Origin: Plebeiibacterium marinum
GTDB taxonomy: Bacteria > Bacteroidota > Bacteroidia > Bacteroidales > Marinilabiliaceae
Reading direction: 5' to 3'
Assembly (NCBI RefSeq): GCF_026013615.1
Contig: NZ_JAPDPI010000053.1
Span: 1-32,035 of the forward strand
Length of the DNA stretch: 32,035 nucleotides
Part shown: positions 23,919 to 30,474 of the stretch, piece after piece
Layout: each line of letters begins with the position of its first letter
Numbering within the stretch: the stretch's first letter is position 1
The notes under the pieces: generated by a model
Told to the model about the DNA's origin: nothing
Databases searched by the model: none
Seen by the model: the letters and a program-made list of their open reading frames with translations, nothing else
Position numbers and translations under genes: made by a program

Positions 23919-24852
23919 TGAGTGTATAACTACTCTGTACATTGGTTGTTGTTGAGAAGTAGAGCGCGTTTTTGTGTGACTTATTTTTTTGATGTTTATG
24001 TATTCTCCGGGAGGGTATATCTTGCAAAAAAAAATGATAAAAAAATGTATATTAATTTGTTTGTGAACAAGAATGAATTAATATTGCATCTGTTAACCCA
24101 ATAAATATATGGGGATTAATATTGCTTGCTTTTGTTATTGTTTTATAGATATTTGCAATGAAATGTGACAATATATCATGCCTGATTTTTGATGTTGGAG
24201 CAGCCTTGTGTGAGGCGTTTTGCAGCAGGTGGCTCCGGACTACCCTCAATTGTTTTGGTACCAAGCCAAAATTCTGATTGATCAAACAGATACTTCTTAA
24301 TATATATCAGGAAAACACTATGGAATAAACTCCTTTGCTGATACTTTGCCATATAGGATGGCTGATCAGAAGATGCTAAAAATTATTAGTAGATAGATTA
24401 AGTAATATGCATGAATTAAACAATTATCTGGTTCCTGCAAGAAAACTCATGATTCCTACGCTCACCCCTCAGTCCTCCCGAACTTGTATTCGGGAGGACT
24501 GAGGGGTGTGGGTGGGCTAACAAAAATTTCAGCAGTTTTTTTGCCAACACTATCTGGTTGCATGATGTGACGCAGGTTGTTGAATAAGATGCTTGTGGTA
24601 AAGGTTGTTTATTGATGTTATTACTACCTGTTCAGTATAAGATTCCATTTATTAAAGCTTGGAGCAAAAGCTAATTTTCAGACTTCAAATCCTCTTGATA
24701 AAAGGTTTTTTATGGCTAACTTGAATACGGTATCAAAGTAGGGTTGTGGATGGGTGCAAACTGACCAAAGGTGAGAACTGTAGCAGTCTTGAAACTTTTG
24801 CTTTGGATGCGGTATAATCTTAATTAAACTCACAAAAAAAAATAACAACCAA
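23919..24852. other. 934-base gap without a recognised gene
   Basis: Apart from the MITE-like copy at 24436-24545, I see no gene, no riboswitch I can name and no tRNA. Frames of 60-100 codons are open but have no supporting start or family signal. AT-rich blocks (24030-24180) and a T/A-balanced stretch near 24820 probably carry the promoter of the PLP operon. TATAAT at 24812-24817 is a weak candidate. A structured RNA cannot be ruled out. Confidence 0.5.
24436..24545 (+). mobile_element. MITE-like repeat, copy 4, with a 19-base perfect hairpin
   Basis: The left end is TGCAAGAAAACTC (24436-24448) and the right end a decayed GTTTTTTTGCCA. The centre is a perfect inverted repeat of 19 bases at 24464-24482 and 24489-24507 with the loop CTTGTA. 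The right part (CTGAAATTTTTGTTA in reverse) is shared with the partial copy at 31884. Confidence 0.75.
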
Positions 24853-25914
24853 ATGAATATTCTTGATGGCGTAAAATCAGCAGAAATAAGAATTACAAAA
24901 GAGGTAAGCAAATTGAGTGATATGGTAAAGGATAAGGACTTGTCGATTGTTGACAGAATAGAATCCTTAGAAGATATCATTTCTCTTGAAATAGGAGATA
25001 CTTCATTGAACAGGGCAAAAAACCTTGAGCGCGAAATGAATCTCAGGCAACTATATATTAAATATGAGGGGGAAAATCCTACCGGTACTCAAAAAGACCG
25101 GATTGCTTTTGCGCAAGTGCATGATGCTTTTAGAAGGGGGTTTGATATTATATCAGTAGCTACTTGTGGAAATTATGGTGTGGCAGTGGCATTTGCCGCT
25201 TATCTGGCAGGAGTACATTGTAAGATTTTTATCCCGGAAACTTACCATACCGAGCGAGTAAAGGAGATGGAACGTTTCGATGCTGAAATTATTAGGTTGC
25301 CGGGTACATATGAAGATGCTGTTTCTGAATCTAGCAGGCTTGCTTTGGTAAACGATTGGTACGATGCCAATCCGGGTGGTGCTAATACTTCCTTGCAAAT
25401 ATCAGCCTATGCTGAAATTGCCAAAGAAATTTATGACCAGCTAAGGGATGCGCCAAAGTATGTTGCTGCGCCAGTTTCTAATGGAACCTTGCTGGCCGGG
25501 GTTTATAGGGGGTTTGTGAGTTTGTATAAAAGGGGTAAAACATCCAGGATACCCATTTTTATTGCAGGATCTTCAGCCTACAAAAACCCTATTATTATGT
25601 CATTTAAATCTGGTTTGGATGCATGCGTTGATATTGATCCTAAGTTGATAAAGGAAACCGTGGTCAATGAACCCCTGATTAACTGGCACAGTTTTGATGG
25701 CAATGAAGCTCTTTTTGCCTTGAGACAATCAGATGGGGAGGCGCATCATATCAGTGATAAGAAGATGAAGGACATGAGTGTTTTTTTACATAAAAAGGAA
25801 GGCTACAGGATTTTGCCTGCTTCAACTTCCGGATTGATTGCCTTGCTCCAAAAGCATGAAAAGGAAAATCTGATTAATGATAGGTATGTGGCTATTTTAA
25901 CAGGAAAATACTAA
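24853..25914 (+). CDS. threonine-synthase-like PLP-dependent enzyme
   Basis: The 353-residue cytoplasmic enzyme belongs to fold-type II (threonine synthase, cysteate synthase, diaminopropionate-forming enzymes). The PLP lysine is K81 in NPTGTQKDR, and the phosphate loop is near TCGNYGVAVAFAAYLAG. Other conserved parts are FIPETYHTERVKEMERFDAEIIRLPGTYEDAV and a final ILPASTSGLIALL. Likely chemistry is beta- or gamma-replacement or elimination on an amino acid such as O-phosphohomoserine, phosphoserine or threonine. It opens the operon with the DUF1611 gene 109 bases on. It is shorter than true threonine synthase (over 400), so a specialised role is more likely. The substrate is unknown. Confidence 0.82.
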   Translation: MNILDGVKSAEIRITKEVSKLSDMVKDKDLSIVDRIESLEDIISLEIGDTSLNRAKNLEREMNLRQLYIKYEGENPTGTQKDRIAFAQVHDAFRRGFDIISVATCGNYGVAVAFAAYLAGVHCKIFIPETYHTERVKEMERFDAEIIRLPGTYEDAVSESSRLALVNDWYDANPGGANTSLQISAYAEIAKEIYDQLRDAPKYVAAPVSNGTLLAGVYRGFVSLYKRGKTSRIPIFIAGSSAYKNPIIMSFKSGLDACVDIDPKLIKETVVNEPLINWHSFDGNEALFALRQSDGEAHHISDKKMKDMSVFLHKKEGYRILPASTSGLIALLQKHEKENLINDRYVAILTGKY

Positions 25915-26023
25915 TATGGATATATGAACAGGTAACCTTGGGGACATGCAGGCTGAGAATATAATGAATGCTTATAAAGGCTTGTGGTTTTTAGGTTGCT
26001 GGTGTTATGCAAAAATGTAACAA

Positions 26024-27094
26024 ATGAAAAAGTCAATAGATGGAAAAGCCCTGGTATATGCAGGAGGGGCTTATAATACGCCCAATGGTAAAACAGCTCA
26101 TGGATTGGTGCGTTTTACCGAACGGTATGATATAGTTGGTGTTATTGATGCTGAATATGCAGGACAGGATGCAGGAATGGTACTGGATGGAAAACCTTGT
26201 GGTATTCCAATATTTGGCGATTTTAACACAGCTATGGATGTATTGGGAGACCAATATAGACCAGATACATTGGTTGTTGGTCTTGCTCCGGATGGAGGGA
26301 GACTGCCTCAGGAAGCTAAAGATGTGATAGCTGAAGCTTTGAATAAAGGGATGAATGTTGATAGTGGGTTGCACGACTTTTTGTATAAAAATGAAGAGCT
26401 TATGGCAACGGCTATTAAAAATAATTGCCGTATTCGGGATATTCGTCGTACACCAGATCGTGATGAACTGCATTTCTTCAGTGGCAAGATTGAGGAAGTA
26501 GATTGTTTAAAAATAGCTGTGTTGGGTACAGATTCTGCCATAGGAAAGCGAACAACGGCGTGGATTATTGTTCATTCATTTCGTGAGGCCGGGTTGAAAG
26601 CTGAAATGATTGGTACTGGACAAACAGCCTGGATGCAAGGAGCGAAATATTCTATGGTAATGGATAGTTGTATCAATGATTTTGTGTCGGGTGAAATTGA
26701 ACATGCCGTACATGAAGCATGGAAAAATGAGTCGCCAGACTTAATCGTGATTGAAGGTCAGGGTAGTTTAATGAATCCCGCTTACCCCGGAGGTTTTGAA
26801 ATACTTGCAGCAGGGAGACCTGATTATGTTGTTTTGCAGCATGCCCCCAAAAGGGTTGAATATGATGGTTTTCCAGGATATAAACTGCATGGGCTTAAAG
26901 AACAGGTTGCTGCTATTGAAACTATTTCGGGTAAAAAGGTAATAGCCATTACCGTAAACCATGAAGATATGGAAAAGGACGAAATTATTCCGGCTTGTGA
27001 TAATATAACCAGAGAAACCGGTTTGCCGGCATTTGATGTATTAGAATACGGTGCATATGAATTGGTAAAACTTCTTAAATCCTATTTAAAGTGA
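26024..27094 (+). CDS. DUF1611 P-loop protein (DgcN-like N-acyltransferase family)
   Basis: The 356-residue protein has a Rossmann-like N-terminal half (KALVYAGGAYNTPNGKTAHGL, then VIDAEYAGQDAG) and a P-loop C-terminal half. The Walker-A-like motif is G168-TDSAIGKR-T177, and LIVIEGQGSLMNPAYPG follows. The DUF1611 family includes DgcN, reported to N-acetylate D-glutamate, which works with the racemase DgcA of the enolase superfamily. An enolase-superfamily epimerase lies three genes downstream here. An ATP-dependent reaction is also compatible with the P-loop. Its stop overlaps the next gene's GTG by four bases (GTGA), so the two are translationally coupled. The family assignment is firm, the substrate not. 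Confidence 0.85.
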   Translation: MKKSIDGKALVYAGGAYNTPNGKTAHGLVRFTERYDIVGVIDAEYAGQDAGMVLDGKPCGIPIFGDFNTAMDVLGDQYRPDTLVVGLAPDGGRLPQEAKDVIAEALNKGMNVDSGLHDFLYKNEELMATAIKNNCRIRDIRRTPDRDELHFFSGKIEEVDCLKIAVLGTDSAIGKRTTAWIIVHSFREAGLKAEMIGTGQTAWMQGAKYSMVMDSCINDFVSGEIEHAVHEAWKNESPDLIVIEGQGSLMNPAYPGGFEILAAGRPDYVVLQHAPKRVEYDGFPGYKLHGLKEQVAAIETISGKKVIAITVNHEDMEKDEIIPACDNITRETGLPAFDVLEYGAYELVKLLKSYLK

Positions 27095-28608
27095 TTACTA
27101 TAGAATCTTTTGTCGTTATCAAAAAACTATCAGTTGTTGATATTCGGATAGAACCCAAAAAAGTTAAGGCTAGTTATGTAGTTGAAAAGTTTGATGGAAA
27201 TGGGGTGTCGTATGATCTGGTGTATACATATGATAATGAATATTTTGATAAAAATTCTTATGATGATGTGAACCTTGCCTCAATGATGCTTGTACAAGTG
27301 GCTTTGAATTATGGCTTGTTTTGTAAAGTAATTGAATTTGATGGTTTGTTTGATAAGGTGGATCAGCGATTTATCAGGGATATGATGGAAAACACATCCC
27401 GTGAGGTTTTTACAAACAAGCTGCTTGTGAAAAATGAGTTTTTAAAACCGCCTTTTGATAGTCTTCGACCAGAAAAAAGGGAGGTTTATACCTTGGCAAG
27501 CCTTGTTTTTTCCAACACTCAATTCACAAACTTGCATAAGAATAAAGCTGGCACATCAACTGATTTGAATAAATATGCCATATTAAGCAGCGGGGGCAAA
27601 GATAGTTTATTAACCTACGGTATTGTTAAGGAGTTGGGGGAGGCTTATCCTGTTTTCATAAATGAAGCAGGGAGGCACTGGTATACAGCCTATAATTCTT
27701 ACCATCATTTTGCTGATGCGGAACCAAATACTGAAAAGCCATGGTGTAACAGTGACCGGGTTTTTAATTGGATGCTTAAGCATTTGCCTTTTATTAAAGA
27801 TAATTATGCCAATATAAGAGCTGATATTTATCCTGTAAGGTTATGGACTGTTGCTGTGTTTTTATTTGGAGTGTTGCCTGTTGTCCGGAAAAAAGGAATC
27901 GGTAATGTTCTGATTGGAGATGAATATGATACAACAGTTAAGGGGAACATGGATGGCATTTCTCATTATAATGGGTTGTATGATCAAAGTAAATATTTTG
28001 ATAATGCTTTAACCCGGTACTATTTTAAAAAAGGCTGGAACATTTATCAATATTCCTTGCTGCGTAGCTTGTCGGAAATGTTGATTATGAAAATTCTGGT
28101 AAAAAGGTATCCTGATCTTCAAAAGCACCAGGTGTCCTGTCATGCAGCTCATAAAAAAGGGGAGCACATGCATCCCTGTGGTAATTGCGAAAAATGTCGT
28201 AGGATTATTGGTATGCTCAAAGCCCTGGATGAAAACCCCGAACATTGTGGTTATGATCCCGGGCAAATAGACAGGGGGCTAAAAGCATTAGGGTTTAAAT
28301 CGGTAAAACAGATAGGGAGCGATGCGGCACATTTATATTATATGTTGCAGGAAAAGAACCTTTTGGTTGATAACGAATTTACTCGTAAAGCAGCCAAAAA
28401 GCATCCGGAAATTATGAAGTTGAGGTTTGATACGGAAAGGAGTTGTCTCGACGACCTGCCTGAACATATCCGTAAACCTTTGTTTACTATACTTATGCAA
28501 TATTCCAGCGGAGCAGTGCAGCGTGTGAATGGAAAGTGGATAGATGTAGATGTTGATGATGATTTTTTAAACATGGGTAATTATAAATATGATGAAGGAT
28601 CAAAGTAA
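27091..28608 (+). CDS. QueC-like PP-loop ATPase with zinc-type cysteine cluster
   Basis: The 505-residue protein starts at a GTG overlapping the DUF1611 stop. The PP-loop of N-type ATP pyrophosphatases, S167-GGKDS172, is followed by a long central region and a cysteine cluster: C350-H, then C363-GN-C366-EK-C369-R. QueC (7-cyano-7-deazaguanine synthase) has the same SCH/Y...CGxCxxCxxR zinc layout. PP-loop enzymes activate a carboxylate or amide with ATP for attack by ammonia, an amine or sulfur. The N-terminal 160 residues (about 25-145 beta-alpha mixed) and the C-terminal 100 are extra compared with QueC (about 230). It may form an amide, nitrile or peptide bond on the operon's substrate. The acceptor is unknown. 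Confidence 0.72.
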   Translation: MITIESFVVIKKLSVVDIRIEPKKVKASYVVEKFDGNGVSYDLVYTYDNEYFDKNSYDDVNLASMMLVQVALNYGLFCKVIEFDGLFDKVDQRFIRDMMENTSREVFTNKLLVKNEFLKPPFDSLRPEKREVYTLASLVFSNTQFTNLHKNKAGTSTDLNKYAILSSGGKDSLLTYGIVKELGEAYPVFINEAGRHWYTAYNSYHHFADAEPNTEKPWCNSDRVFNWMLKHLPFIKDNYANIRADIYPVRLWTVAVFLFGVLPVVRKKGIGNVLIGDEYDTTVKGNMDGISHYNGLYDQSKYFDNALTRYYFKKGWNIYQYSLLRSLSEMLIMKILVKRYPDLQKHQVSCHAAHKKGEHMHPCGNCEKCRRIIGMLKALDENPEHCGYDPGQIDRGLKALGFKSVKQIGSDAAHLYYMLQEKNLLVDNEFTRKAAKKHPEIMKLRFDTERSCLDDLPEHIRKPLFTILMQYSSGAVQRVNGKWIDVDVDDDFLNMGNYKYDEGSK

Positions 28609-29392
28609 ATATCCTGATTATATGTGGGCCACATTGTCATGGCCTCAAATTCAGGAAAGGTTGAAAATTGTGGATACTGCAATTTTGCCTTGTGGGGCAA
28701 TAGAACAGCATGGGCCACACCTGCCCCTTGATGTGGACTTTTTTGATGCTGAGTATCTCGCCAAAGAAGTAGCCCGGCATTGTAATGACCCTAAGCCATT
28801 TGTTTTGCCGGCTATTCCTTATGGGGTATCTTATCATCATAGTGATTTCAAAGGTACTTTATCGGTAACTAATAATGCATTGTCGGCAATTATATATGAT
28901 ATAGGCATGAGCTTGGCACATAATGGGATAAAAAAAATTGTGTTGCTGAATGGGCATGGTGATAATGCTCCCACATTAGCCTATGCAGCTCAAATGATCA
29001 ATCGTGATGCGCGTATTTTTGTTTGTGTTGAAACAGGAGAAACCAGTGACGTAGATTTATACCGGCTCATTGATACATCCAATGATATTCATGCAGGAGA
29101 AATAGAAACCAGTACCACGCTTGCCATCAGACCTGAATTGGTTGATATGGACAAAGCGGTTGATGATACTCTTGACCTGGATAATGTATATTTGGATTAT
29201 ACATCAGAAAGAGGTGTGAACTGGTATGTGCATACAGAAAAACTTACCAGCTCTGGTGTTATGGGGGATGCAACCAAGGCAACAGTTGAAAAGGGCAAAA
29301 AGATGTGGGATATCATGATTAAAAAGATGGTGGATTTTGTTGAAACAATAAAAAATACGCCTTCAGATAAACTGTTTCGGAATCGGTATTAA
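28589..29392 (+). CDS. creatininase-family metal amidohydrolase
   Basis: The 267-residue cytoplasmic hydrolase has the creatininase metal site: E39-QHGPHLPL-D48, N121-GHGDN126 and H168-AGEIETS175, giving acidic and histidine ligands for two metal ions. Family members open amide bonds in creatinine, in formamidopyrimidines, or in the mycofactocin peptide. The gene overlaps the PP-loop gene by 20 bases and begins either at 28589 or at the second ATG (28592). It could deacylate or split the product of the epimerase and DUF1611 proteins. The Asn-Asp in NGHGDN replaces the usual GG-N of some relatives. The substrate is unknown. Confidence 0.85.
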   Translation: MMKDQSKYPDYMWATLSWPQIQERLKIVDTAILPCGAIEQHGPHLPLDVDFFDAEYLAKEVARHCNDPKPFVLPAIPYGVSYHHSDFKGTLSVTNNALSAIIYDIGMSLAHNGIKKIVLLNGHGDNAPTLAYAAQMINRDARIFVCVETGETSDVDLYRLIDTSNDIHAGEIETSTTLAIRPELVDMDKAVDDTLDLDNVYLDYTSERGVNWYVHTEKLTSSGVMGDATKATVEKGKKMWDIMIKKMVDFVETIKNTPSDKLFRNRY

Positions 29393-29409
29393 AAGAAAAT
29401 ATAAAGCAT

Positions 29410-30474
29410 ATGAAAATTACCAAAGTAGAGTATTACAGGTTTGATATGCCTCTTGCTGTTCCCTACACTATAGCTTATGAAACAATAAGTAAAACAACCA
29501 ATATAATACTAAAGCTATCAACGGATAAAGGTATTACCGGATGGGGTTGTGCAGCACCAGATGTGGAAGTGACAAGGGAAACTCCGGAAGAAGTGGTGCG
29601 GAACATTGAGACTGTGATAATTGGTTTATTGCAAGGGGAATCTCCATTTCAGTTATCACGCATTACCCATTATTTAAAACAGGTATGCCCCAAGGCTTCC
29701 TCTACTATAGCCATGGTTGATATGGCACTGTATGATTTGCTTGCGCGTAAGGCAAAGTTACCCCTTTATCAGCTGTTGGGTGGTTTTCGTGAAATGATAC
29801 CAACCAGTATCACCATAGGGATATTATCTGTAAAAGAAACGATGGAGCAAGCCGGGTATTATTTAAAGCAGGGGTTTACTATCCTAAAACTAAAAGGCGG
29901 AGCAAACCTGGATGAAGATGTTGAAAAATTGATGAAATTAAGGGAGCGGTTTGGGGATGATTTCGTCCTGCGTTTTGATGCCAACCAAGGGTATTCTCCC
30001 GAAGAGGCAATTGAGTTGATTGAGAAAACGAGAAATGCAAATATTGAAATATTAGAGCAGCCAACAAAACAAACTCATGAAGAACATTTGGGTGAGGTTA
30101 CCCAAAATATCGATATTCCGGTAATGGCTGACGAGAGTATAAAAACTTTAAAGGACGCTTTTAGGCTTGCAAGTAATGAATTGATTGATATGGTTAATAT
30201 TAAAATAATGAAGGTGGGTGGTATTCTGGAATCCCAACATATTAACTCGGTGGCAAAAGCCGCTGGATTGCAGGTTATGGTTGGCTGTATTGATGAATGT
30301 GCTTTGGGTATATCTGCAGGGCTTCATTTTGCTTTGAGCAGGCCAAATATTGAATATGCAGATCTGGATGGTCATCTGGATCTGCTGGACGATCCCTTCT
30401 ATGATCTTTTTACCCTTAAAAATGGGATTTTATACCCTTCAAAAGAGTATGGATTGGGAAAGGTAAGGTTATAG
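29410..30474 (+). CDS. dipeptide epimerase (enolase superfamily, AEE-like)
   Basis: The 354-residue enzyme would invert an alpha-carbon of a dipeptide or N-acyl amino acid. The catalytic lysines K160 and K162 (KLK-GG) and K265, and the metal ligands D190, E216 and D241, are all present. A DxD pair (D318, D320 in ADLDGH), used by L-Ala-D/L-Glu epimerases to hold the free amino end, is also there. The spacings between these residues (24 from D241 to K265, 77 to D318) agree with the Bacillus subtilis enzyme as I remember it. An N-acetyl-D-glutamate racemase (DgcA) role is the main alternative. It starts 17 bases after the creatininase stop and ends the operon. Confidence 0.88.
   Translation: MKITKVEYYRFDMPLAVPYTIAYETISKTTNIILKLSTDKGITGWGCAAPDVEVTRETPEEVVRNIETVIIGLLQGESPFQLSRITHYLKQVCPKASSTIAMVDMALYDLLARKAKLPLYQLLGGFREMIPTSITIGILSVKETMEQAGYYLKQGFTILKLKGGANLDEDVEKLMKLRERFGDDFVLRFDANQGYSPEEAIELIEKTRNANIEILEQPTKQTHEEHLGEVTQNIDIPVMADESIKTLKDAFRLASNELIDMVNIKIMKVGGILESQHINSVAKAAGLQVMVGCIDECALGISAGLHFALSRPNIEYADLDGHLDLLDDPFYDLFTLKNGILYPSKEYGLGKVRL

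Follow-up and report, generated by a model that had tools for sequence, protein, structure and literature searches.

The window analyzed here, a 32,035-nucleotide stretch of Plebeiibacterium marinum (contig NZ_JAPDPI010000053.1, positions 1–32,035 of the forward strand), carries at 24,853–30,474 an operon of five genes, and many bacterial lineages share this five-gene set with its order unchanged, beyond what chance would produce. The genes encode, in order, a pyridoxal-phosphate (PLP) enzyme (P), a DUF1611 protein (D), a PP-loop ATP enzyme (L), a creatininase-family amidohydrolase (C), and an enolase-superfamily protein of the dipeptide-epimerase type (E). We tentatively favor, with a confidence somewhat short of even, the view that they form a conserved and self-contained pathway for the stereo-inversion of an amino acid or dipeptide whose side chain would be non-acidic and perhaps cationic. 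A sequence-only reading of the same DNA had described five genes running in one direction and tightly coupled, and the open reading frames lie exactly where it had placed them, all on the forward strand, with a gap of 109 bases between P and D, overlaps of 4 bases between D and L and of 20 bases between L and C, and a gap of 17 bases between C and E. It had also considered the combination to be no described pathway; we likewise found no description of it in the open-access literature (most subscription journals fell outside the search), so that an entire series of metabolic steps apparently still lacks an assignment.

Recurrence of the five-gene set

From a scan of one genome per species over 84,980 species, which found 190 relatives, the best 80 were used and joined by 11 loci from the phylum and relative samples, giving 91 loci, or 87 unique loci besides the window once four duplicates had been removed. 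Flanking sequence was complete (at least 2.6 kb before L and 1.3 or 2.3 kb after it) for 71 of these 87. The sequence-only reading had proposed to ask whether the five genes co-occur across Bacteroidota; they do so there and beyond, all five lying on one strand in 55 of the 71 flank-complete loci. The other 16 comprise six P-D-L-C, three L-C-E, two L-C, two P-D-L, two P-L-C, and one D-L arrangement, with locus L030 possibly lacking E merely through the end of its contig soon after C. In 67 of the 91 loci (counted before duplicate removal) the genes run P, D, L, C, E, and L and C form a single polypeptide in 33 of the 87. Moreover, pairwise distances among the five proteins are correlated across the 55 complete sets (r 0.70–0.89, a level that 300 permutations never approached, their maximum being 0.27), which is to be read as joint inheritance and not as function, since the permutation controls leave shared ancestry in.

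By their record titles, the relatives belong to Bacteroidota, Calditrichaeota, Deltaproteobacteria/Desulfobacterales, Gemmatimonadota, Latescibacterota, Zixibacteriota, KSB1, Aminicenantes, Acidobacteria, and SAR324, that is, about ten phylum-level names in total, single ones of which may be wrong given that most relatives are metagenome bins. The spread is patchy, which suggests transfer of the gene set between lineages. L occurs in 11 of the 395 sampled genomes of the phylum, the window's own included, and in none of 8 other genomes of the window's genus, and a search of 119 relatives returned three matches, one of them the window's own and another (in genome G073) a MurL protein and not an L.

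No sixth gene is constant, the commonest neighbor family being present in 11 of the 87 loci. This family is beta-lactamase-like, and at least 7 of its 11 loci are from Maribacter, Muriicola, and Eudoraea; a sigma-factor-like family (7 loci) and a CorA-like family (6 loci) also recur, these names coming from Pfam matches of ten representatives only. Seven loci (L018, L032, L054, L057, L060, L063, and L065) carry near the operon a fused GNAT/carbon-nitrogen-hydrolase family, whose L054 member has N-carbamoylputrescine amidase as its best NCBIfam match, far under the cut-off.

The PP-loop enzyme between MurL and QueC

The L gene (27,091–28,608) starts with GTG and encodes 505 residues with no Pfam or NCBIfam match at 1e-3, the best weak match being DUF6395 (0.0028, under its cut-off). 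Its SGGKDS motif and four cysteines, a putative metal-site motif, are strongly conserved, each residue being found in 83–85 of 85 L proteins. To the sequence-only reading, L was QueC-like. At the level of the modeled fold this holds; at the level of sequence, L is closer to MurL, an epimerase that serves peptidoglycan synthesis in Xanthomonas and that consumes ATP, forms AMP, and works from L to D only (PMC8788868). Indeed, a set of five MurL-like reference proteins (two of them well supported) outscored QueC in blastp for 85 of 85 L proteins, with E<1e-3 in 65 cases for MurL and in none for QueC, and hhalign aligned L to MurL over 196 columns with a probability of 96.7% (E 4.5e-10), as compared with 48% (1.8e-4) for QueC. 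These comparisons indicate that L is a distant MurL homolog.

Among the references, L145 is annotated murL and lies beside murD, and the G073 protein (locus L024, 5791–8576) overlaps a MurD homolog in a genome with no MurI match. G073 is a genome of the window's own order, and its phylum is absent from the taxa listed in the MurL passages of PMC8788868. As judged by eye, its protein bears a false N-terminal extension of 41 residues that reads through a tRNA; the 120 genomes counted in a search with it mostly reflect that extension, and among the matches listed the usable ones are its own copy and an L gene of genome G352. L146, L147, and L148 are MurL-like proteins encoded on Pseudonocardia plasmids and annotated as hypothetical; in every case a large gene adjoins on the opposite strand, and no Mur ligase is annotated within the 6 kb examined.

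Two results qualify this closeness to MurL. Counts of conserved residues do not separate MurL from QueC (same residue at 16 of 29 and 17 of 31 positions, respectively), and the solved folds closest to the model of L are those of QatC, QueC, and Cap9 (sequence searches of the PDB yielded no MurL structure and no useful match to L). The strongest argument against our preferred reading is the amide-forming chemistry of this fold in QueC and Cap9, where ATP activates a carboxylate that is then attacked by an amine or ammonia (PMC13279940), so L may be a ligase. On this basis, L could adenylate a carboxylate made by the operon and join it to an amine, C would trim or proofread the product, and the outcome would be a modified dipeptide or amide containing a residue to which E has given its handedness. 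The retention in L of the PxR and four-cysteine motifs of QueC fits such a role, as does the L–C fusion, which is expected for opposed or sequential amide chemistry. We consider this account possible, if on the unlikely side: besides the higher MurL scores of every L protein, the tyrosine of the Tyr-x-Asp motif by which QueC binds deazaguanine, stacking the tyrosine on it (PMC13279940), is kept in 22 of 22 QueC proteins and replaced by leucine in 83 of 85 L proteins (the aspartate being kept in 85 of 85), hence a substrate different from that of QueC, and no partner protein is evident among the neighbor families.

Two more specific assignments were set aside. Membership of L in the QueC family PF06508 was rejected, the window's L having no match to it at E up to 10 and the relatives in loci L018 and L019 scoring 14 and 11.3 bits for a cut-off of 22; a 2026 survey of the QueC family covers PF06508 clusters, and its main text does not contain the words MurL, creatininase, or epimerase (PMC13329287). 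A QatC-like defense role was dropped as well, because PADLOC gave no match for six of seven L or MurL-like proteins, the window's L included, and 13 bits for the remaining one; no qat genes are named among the annotated neighbors of the loci examined.

Partner enzymes and modularity

The earlier view that each enzyme has intact catalytic motifs is borne out by their conservation across 66–85 relatives per protein. P (24,853–25,914; 353 residues; PF00291, 2e-50) is a threonine-synthase-like PLP enzyme of fold type II, scoring 416.5 bits against the threonine synthase model NF004996 (cut-off 266); a separate thrC elsewhere in the genome (C143, 293.5 bits) is rated stronger. Its Lys81, within NPTGTQKDR, is found in 75 of 75 relatives, and its TCGNYG loop is near-invariant. 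At the place where the threonine synthases compared have the arginine of an R-x-EGQK segment, presumably the residue that binds the substrate phosphate, P has Gln182 (75 of 75). C (28,589–29,392; 267 residues; PF02633, 7e-71) scores 238.8 bits against its Pfam family (cut-off 31.3), and what we take to be its metal ligands are retained as exact strings: EQHGPHL in 76, NGHG in 80, and HAGE in 80 of 81 proteins. It stays under the cut-offs for creatininase proper (TIGR04448, 122.8 of 235 bits) and for MftE (TIGR03964, 144.4 of 172 bits).

D (26,024–27,094; 356 residues; PF07755, 7e-65, and PF17396, 7e-24) has the P-loop GTDSAxGK in 74 of 76 proteins. E (29,410–30,474; 354 residues; PF13378, 1e-46, and PF02746, 1e-18) was put forward by the sequence-only reading as a dipeptide epimerase. 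Its catalytic pair, Lys162 and Lys268 (see PMC5808125, section 4, for their roles in the epimerase), agrees with this and is present, together with the metal ligands, in 66 of 66 proteins. The Arg24 of the L-Ala-D/L-Glu epimerase YkfB is missing: position 24 is Glu in 63 of 66 proteins, Gln in 2, and Asp in 1, alongside Asp51 (62 of 66) and Asp295 (66 of 66), and E remains under the L-Ala-D/L-Glu epimerase models (NF041118, 235.7 of 500 bits; NF011708, 95.7 of 343).

The suspected link to DgcN–DgcA-type chemistry is supported in that D and E share superfamilies with DgcN and DgcA, which turn D-Glu into L-Glu (PMC12363236, PMC10845958). Both lie far outside the corresponding equivalog families, D at 152.5 bits for the 480 of NF041892 and E at 142.4 bits for the 400 of NF042940, and D–E is best read as a pair for N-acylation and racemization related to DgcN–DgcA. 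Neither result that the sequence-only reading had named as a refutation was thus obtained, be it a lack of co-occurrence elsewhere or a place of E and D squarely among DgcA and DgcN with the other three genes unlinked. This kinship would also suit a catabolic or salvage operon, a wider DgcN–DgcA route in which D-amino acids or D-dipeptides are acylated by D, epimerized to the L form by E and L, hydrolyzed by C, and degraded by P; that C comes from a hydrolase family and that P weakly matches lyases points the same way. We nonetheless judge it unlikely, as ATP-driven inversion by a MurL relative is expected to run from L to D, the DgcN and DgcA cut-offs are missed by such a wide margin, and, as had been noted for the window, the operon has no transporter: across the 87 loci, neither a transporter nor a peptidase family accompanies it consistently. 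The related argument for biosynthesis, from the use of ATP and the lack of a transporter, is plausible but not decisive.

That the five genes act as one operon holds as far as recurrence goes and has to be qualified by modularity, since P-D-E also stands without L-C and some operons have no E. Orthologs of D (at least 60% identity) occur in 20 of 390 sampled genomes, among which are all 11 L-bearing ones (hypergeometric 2e-16, taking 395 genomes as the total); at the level of the locus, L is found without D in L048, L054, L056, L057, L063, L066, and L105. Six of the nine genomes with D and without L were examined, and all six hold P, D, and E together, four of them as P-D-E in a row and two as D-E with P alongside on the other strand, with no L or C within about 17 kb around the locus. 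In the D tree, every P-linked protein belongs to a single clade of 82 (support 0.875). The P-D-E cases nest within the part of it that contains L (28 tips, of which L loci contribute 22; support 0.94), and one of these cases lies next to Maribacter; L-C was therefore probably lost, or moved, more than once. More distant D-E pairs occur by themselves.

As for E, a survey of 14 genomes, 11 of them picked for the absence of E from the locus and three (L054, L057, and L063) serving as positives, genome completeness not being given, found nine in which no E relative reaches 50% identity, two with E on another or split contig, and three with E in the operon. The best matches in the nine are 34–40% identical, and seven are dipeptide-epimerase-like, with Lys at position 24 in six and Val in one; for five of these seven, the short stretch examined around the gene also includes a DUF1611 gene.

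Several variant loci accompany this picture. Genome G463, which carries the five-gene operon, has at L235 (6837–9031) a second DUF1611 gene that overlaps, instead of E, a PLP gene resembling ornithine racemase (404.6 bits against a cut-off of 480). L231 and L232 have D-E pairs of a different subclass directly after a class II DAHP synthase gene (identified by NCBIfam for L231 and by eye for L232). In L048 (9707–11,017) and L056 (9902–11,302), a protein with a twin-arginine-like start, as judged by eye, follows an L-C without P-D-E; the one in L048 matches enolase-superfamily dehydratase models, all under cut-off.

In the window, the operon is flanked by genes for a DUF418 protein and a thioredoxin-like protein, the latter, downstream, matched at 35% or less in other genomes of the genus. 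An inverted repeat (24,455–24,516; 28 nt, 89% complementary, 6-nt loop) lies between the DUF418 gene and the operon, and the window contains its core pattern a single time; L111, the one locus of 269 to show the pattern, represents this same place. No riboswitch reached the gathering score in the window or in the loci of nine relatives (which gave one tRNA only), and six sub-threshold RNA-family matches are miRNA models that all fall on one hairpin.

A candidate inversion pathway and its known counterparts

Under the stereo-inversion pathway that we favor, whose reactions, substrate, and direction we infer, P would make or consume the amino acid, and D, by analogy with the D-glutamate N-acetyltransferase DgcN, would acylate or aminoacylate the amine of that amino acid. 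As is typical of its family and in keeping with its conserved residues, E would then exchange the alpha proton reversibly between its two lysines while the carboxylate is bound to the metal. L, if it works as MurL does, would activate the same carboxylate with ATP and drive the inversion one way, and C, judging from its family and from the L–C fusion, would hydrolyze the amide and release the inverted amino acid with no back-reaction. P-D-E would thus be the core, and L-C an optional ratchet, a coupled accessory pair acting at the same stereocenter.

In its most far-reaching form, which we regard as doubtful, this would be the first pathway outside peptidoglycan synthesis to invert an amino acid at the expense of ATP. 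An epimerase of the MurL type, joined in one polypeptide with an amidohydrolase of the creatininase type, would serve as the irreversible ratchet, its substrate being a cationic amino acid that is N-acylated or bound in a dipeptide. It would work beside an ordinary reversible epimerase, and widespread environmental bacteria would thereby release either the free D-amino acid or a dipeptide containing it. It is very improbable that the operon instead provides peptidoglycan precursors with an unusual D residue, as MurL–MurD2 does, for although L is homologous to MurL and the P-D-E loci L225 and L226 have, some 0.9 kb upstream of P and on the opposite strand, a gene judged murA-like by eye, no Mur ligase adjoins the operon in the window, its genome has MurI, and L is absent from the 8 other genomes of the genus and hence dispensable there.

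If L is indeed an ATP-driven epimerase, MurL chemistry would extend beyond the cell wall and offer a route to one-way production of D-amino acids; if it is a ligase, the QueC/QatC fold would gain another small-molecule branch. In either case, the natural variants P-D-E, P-D-L-C, and P-D-L-C-E are ready-made subtractions for biochemistry.

With regard to known systems, L resembles MurL in its homologous PP-loop core with GGxDS, in an S-x-L followed by a glutamate, and in the four-cysteine motif. It departs from MurL in lacking the C-terminal ECVG (0 of 85 L proteins, 5 of 5 MurL-like proteins), in having no MurD beside the window copy, and in its coupling or fusion to a creatininase; the setting differs too, as MurI, a glutamate racemase, makes L unnecessary for D-Glu in the window's genome. 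Toward QueC, the likeness in PP-loop, PxR, and cysteine motifs comes with a different spacing at the putative metal site, C-x12-C-x2-C-x2-C in L and C-x8-C-x2-C-x2-C in canonical QueC. The pairing of a DUF1611 protein with an enolase-superfamily racemase recalls the DgcN–DgcA pathway for D-glutamate, to which the operon adds three further enzymes. Finally, E has Glu24 where both YkfB (1JPM) and the Methylococcus capsulatus (M. capsulatus) enzyme 3RIT have Arg24; according to a figure legend, the specificity residues of 3RIT are R24, E51, and D296 (PMC3965090), and its structure title indicates that it was solved with L-Arg-D-Lys.

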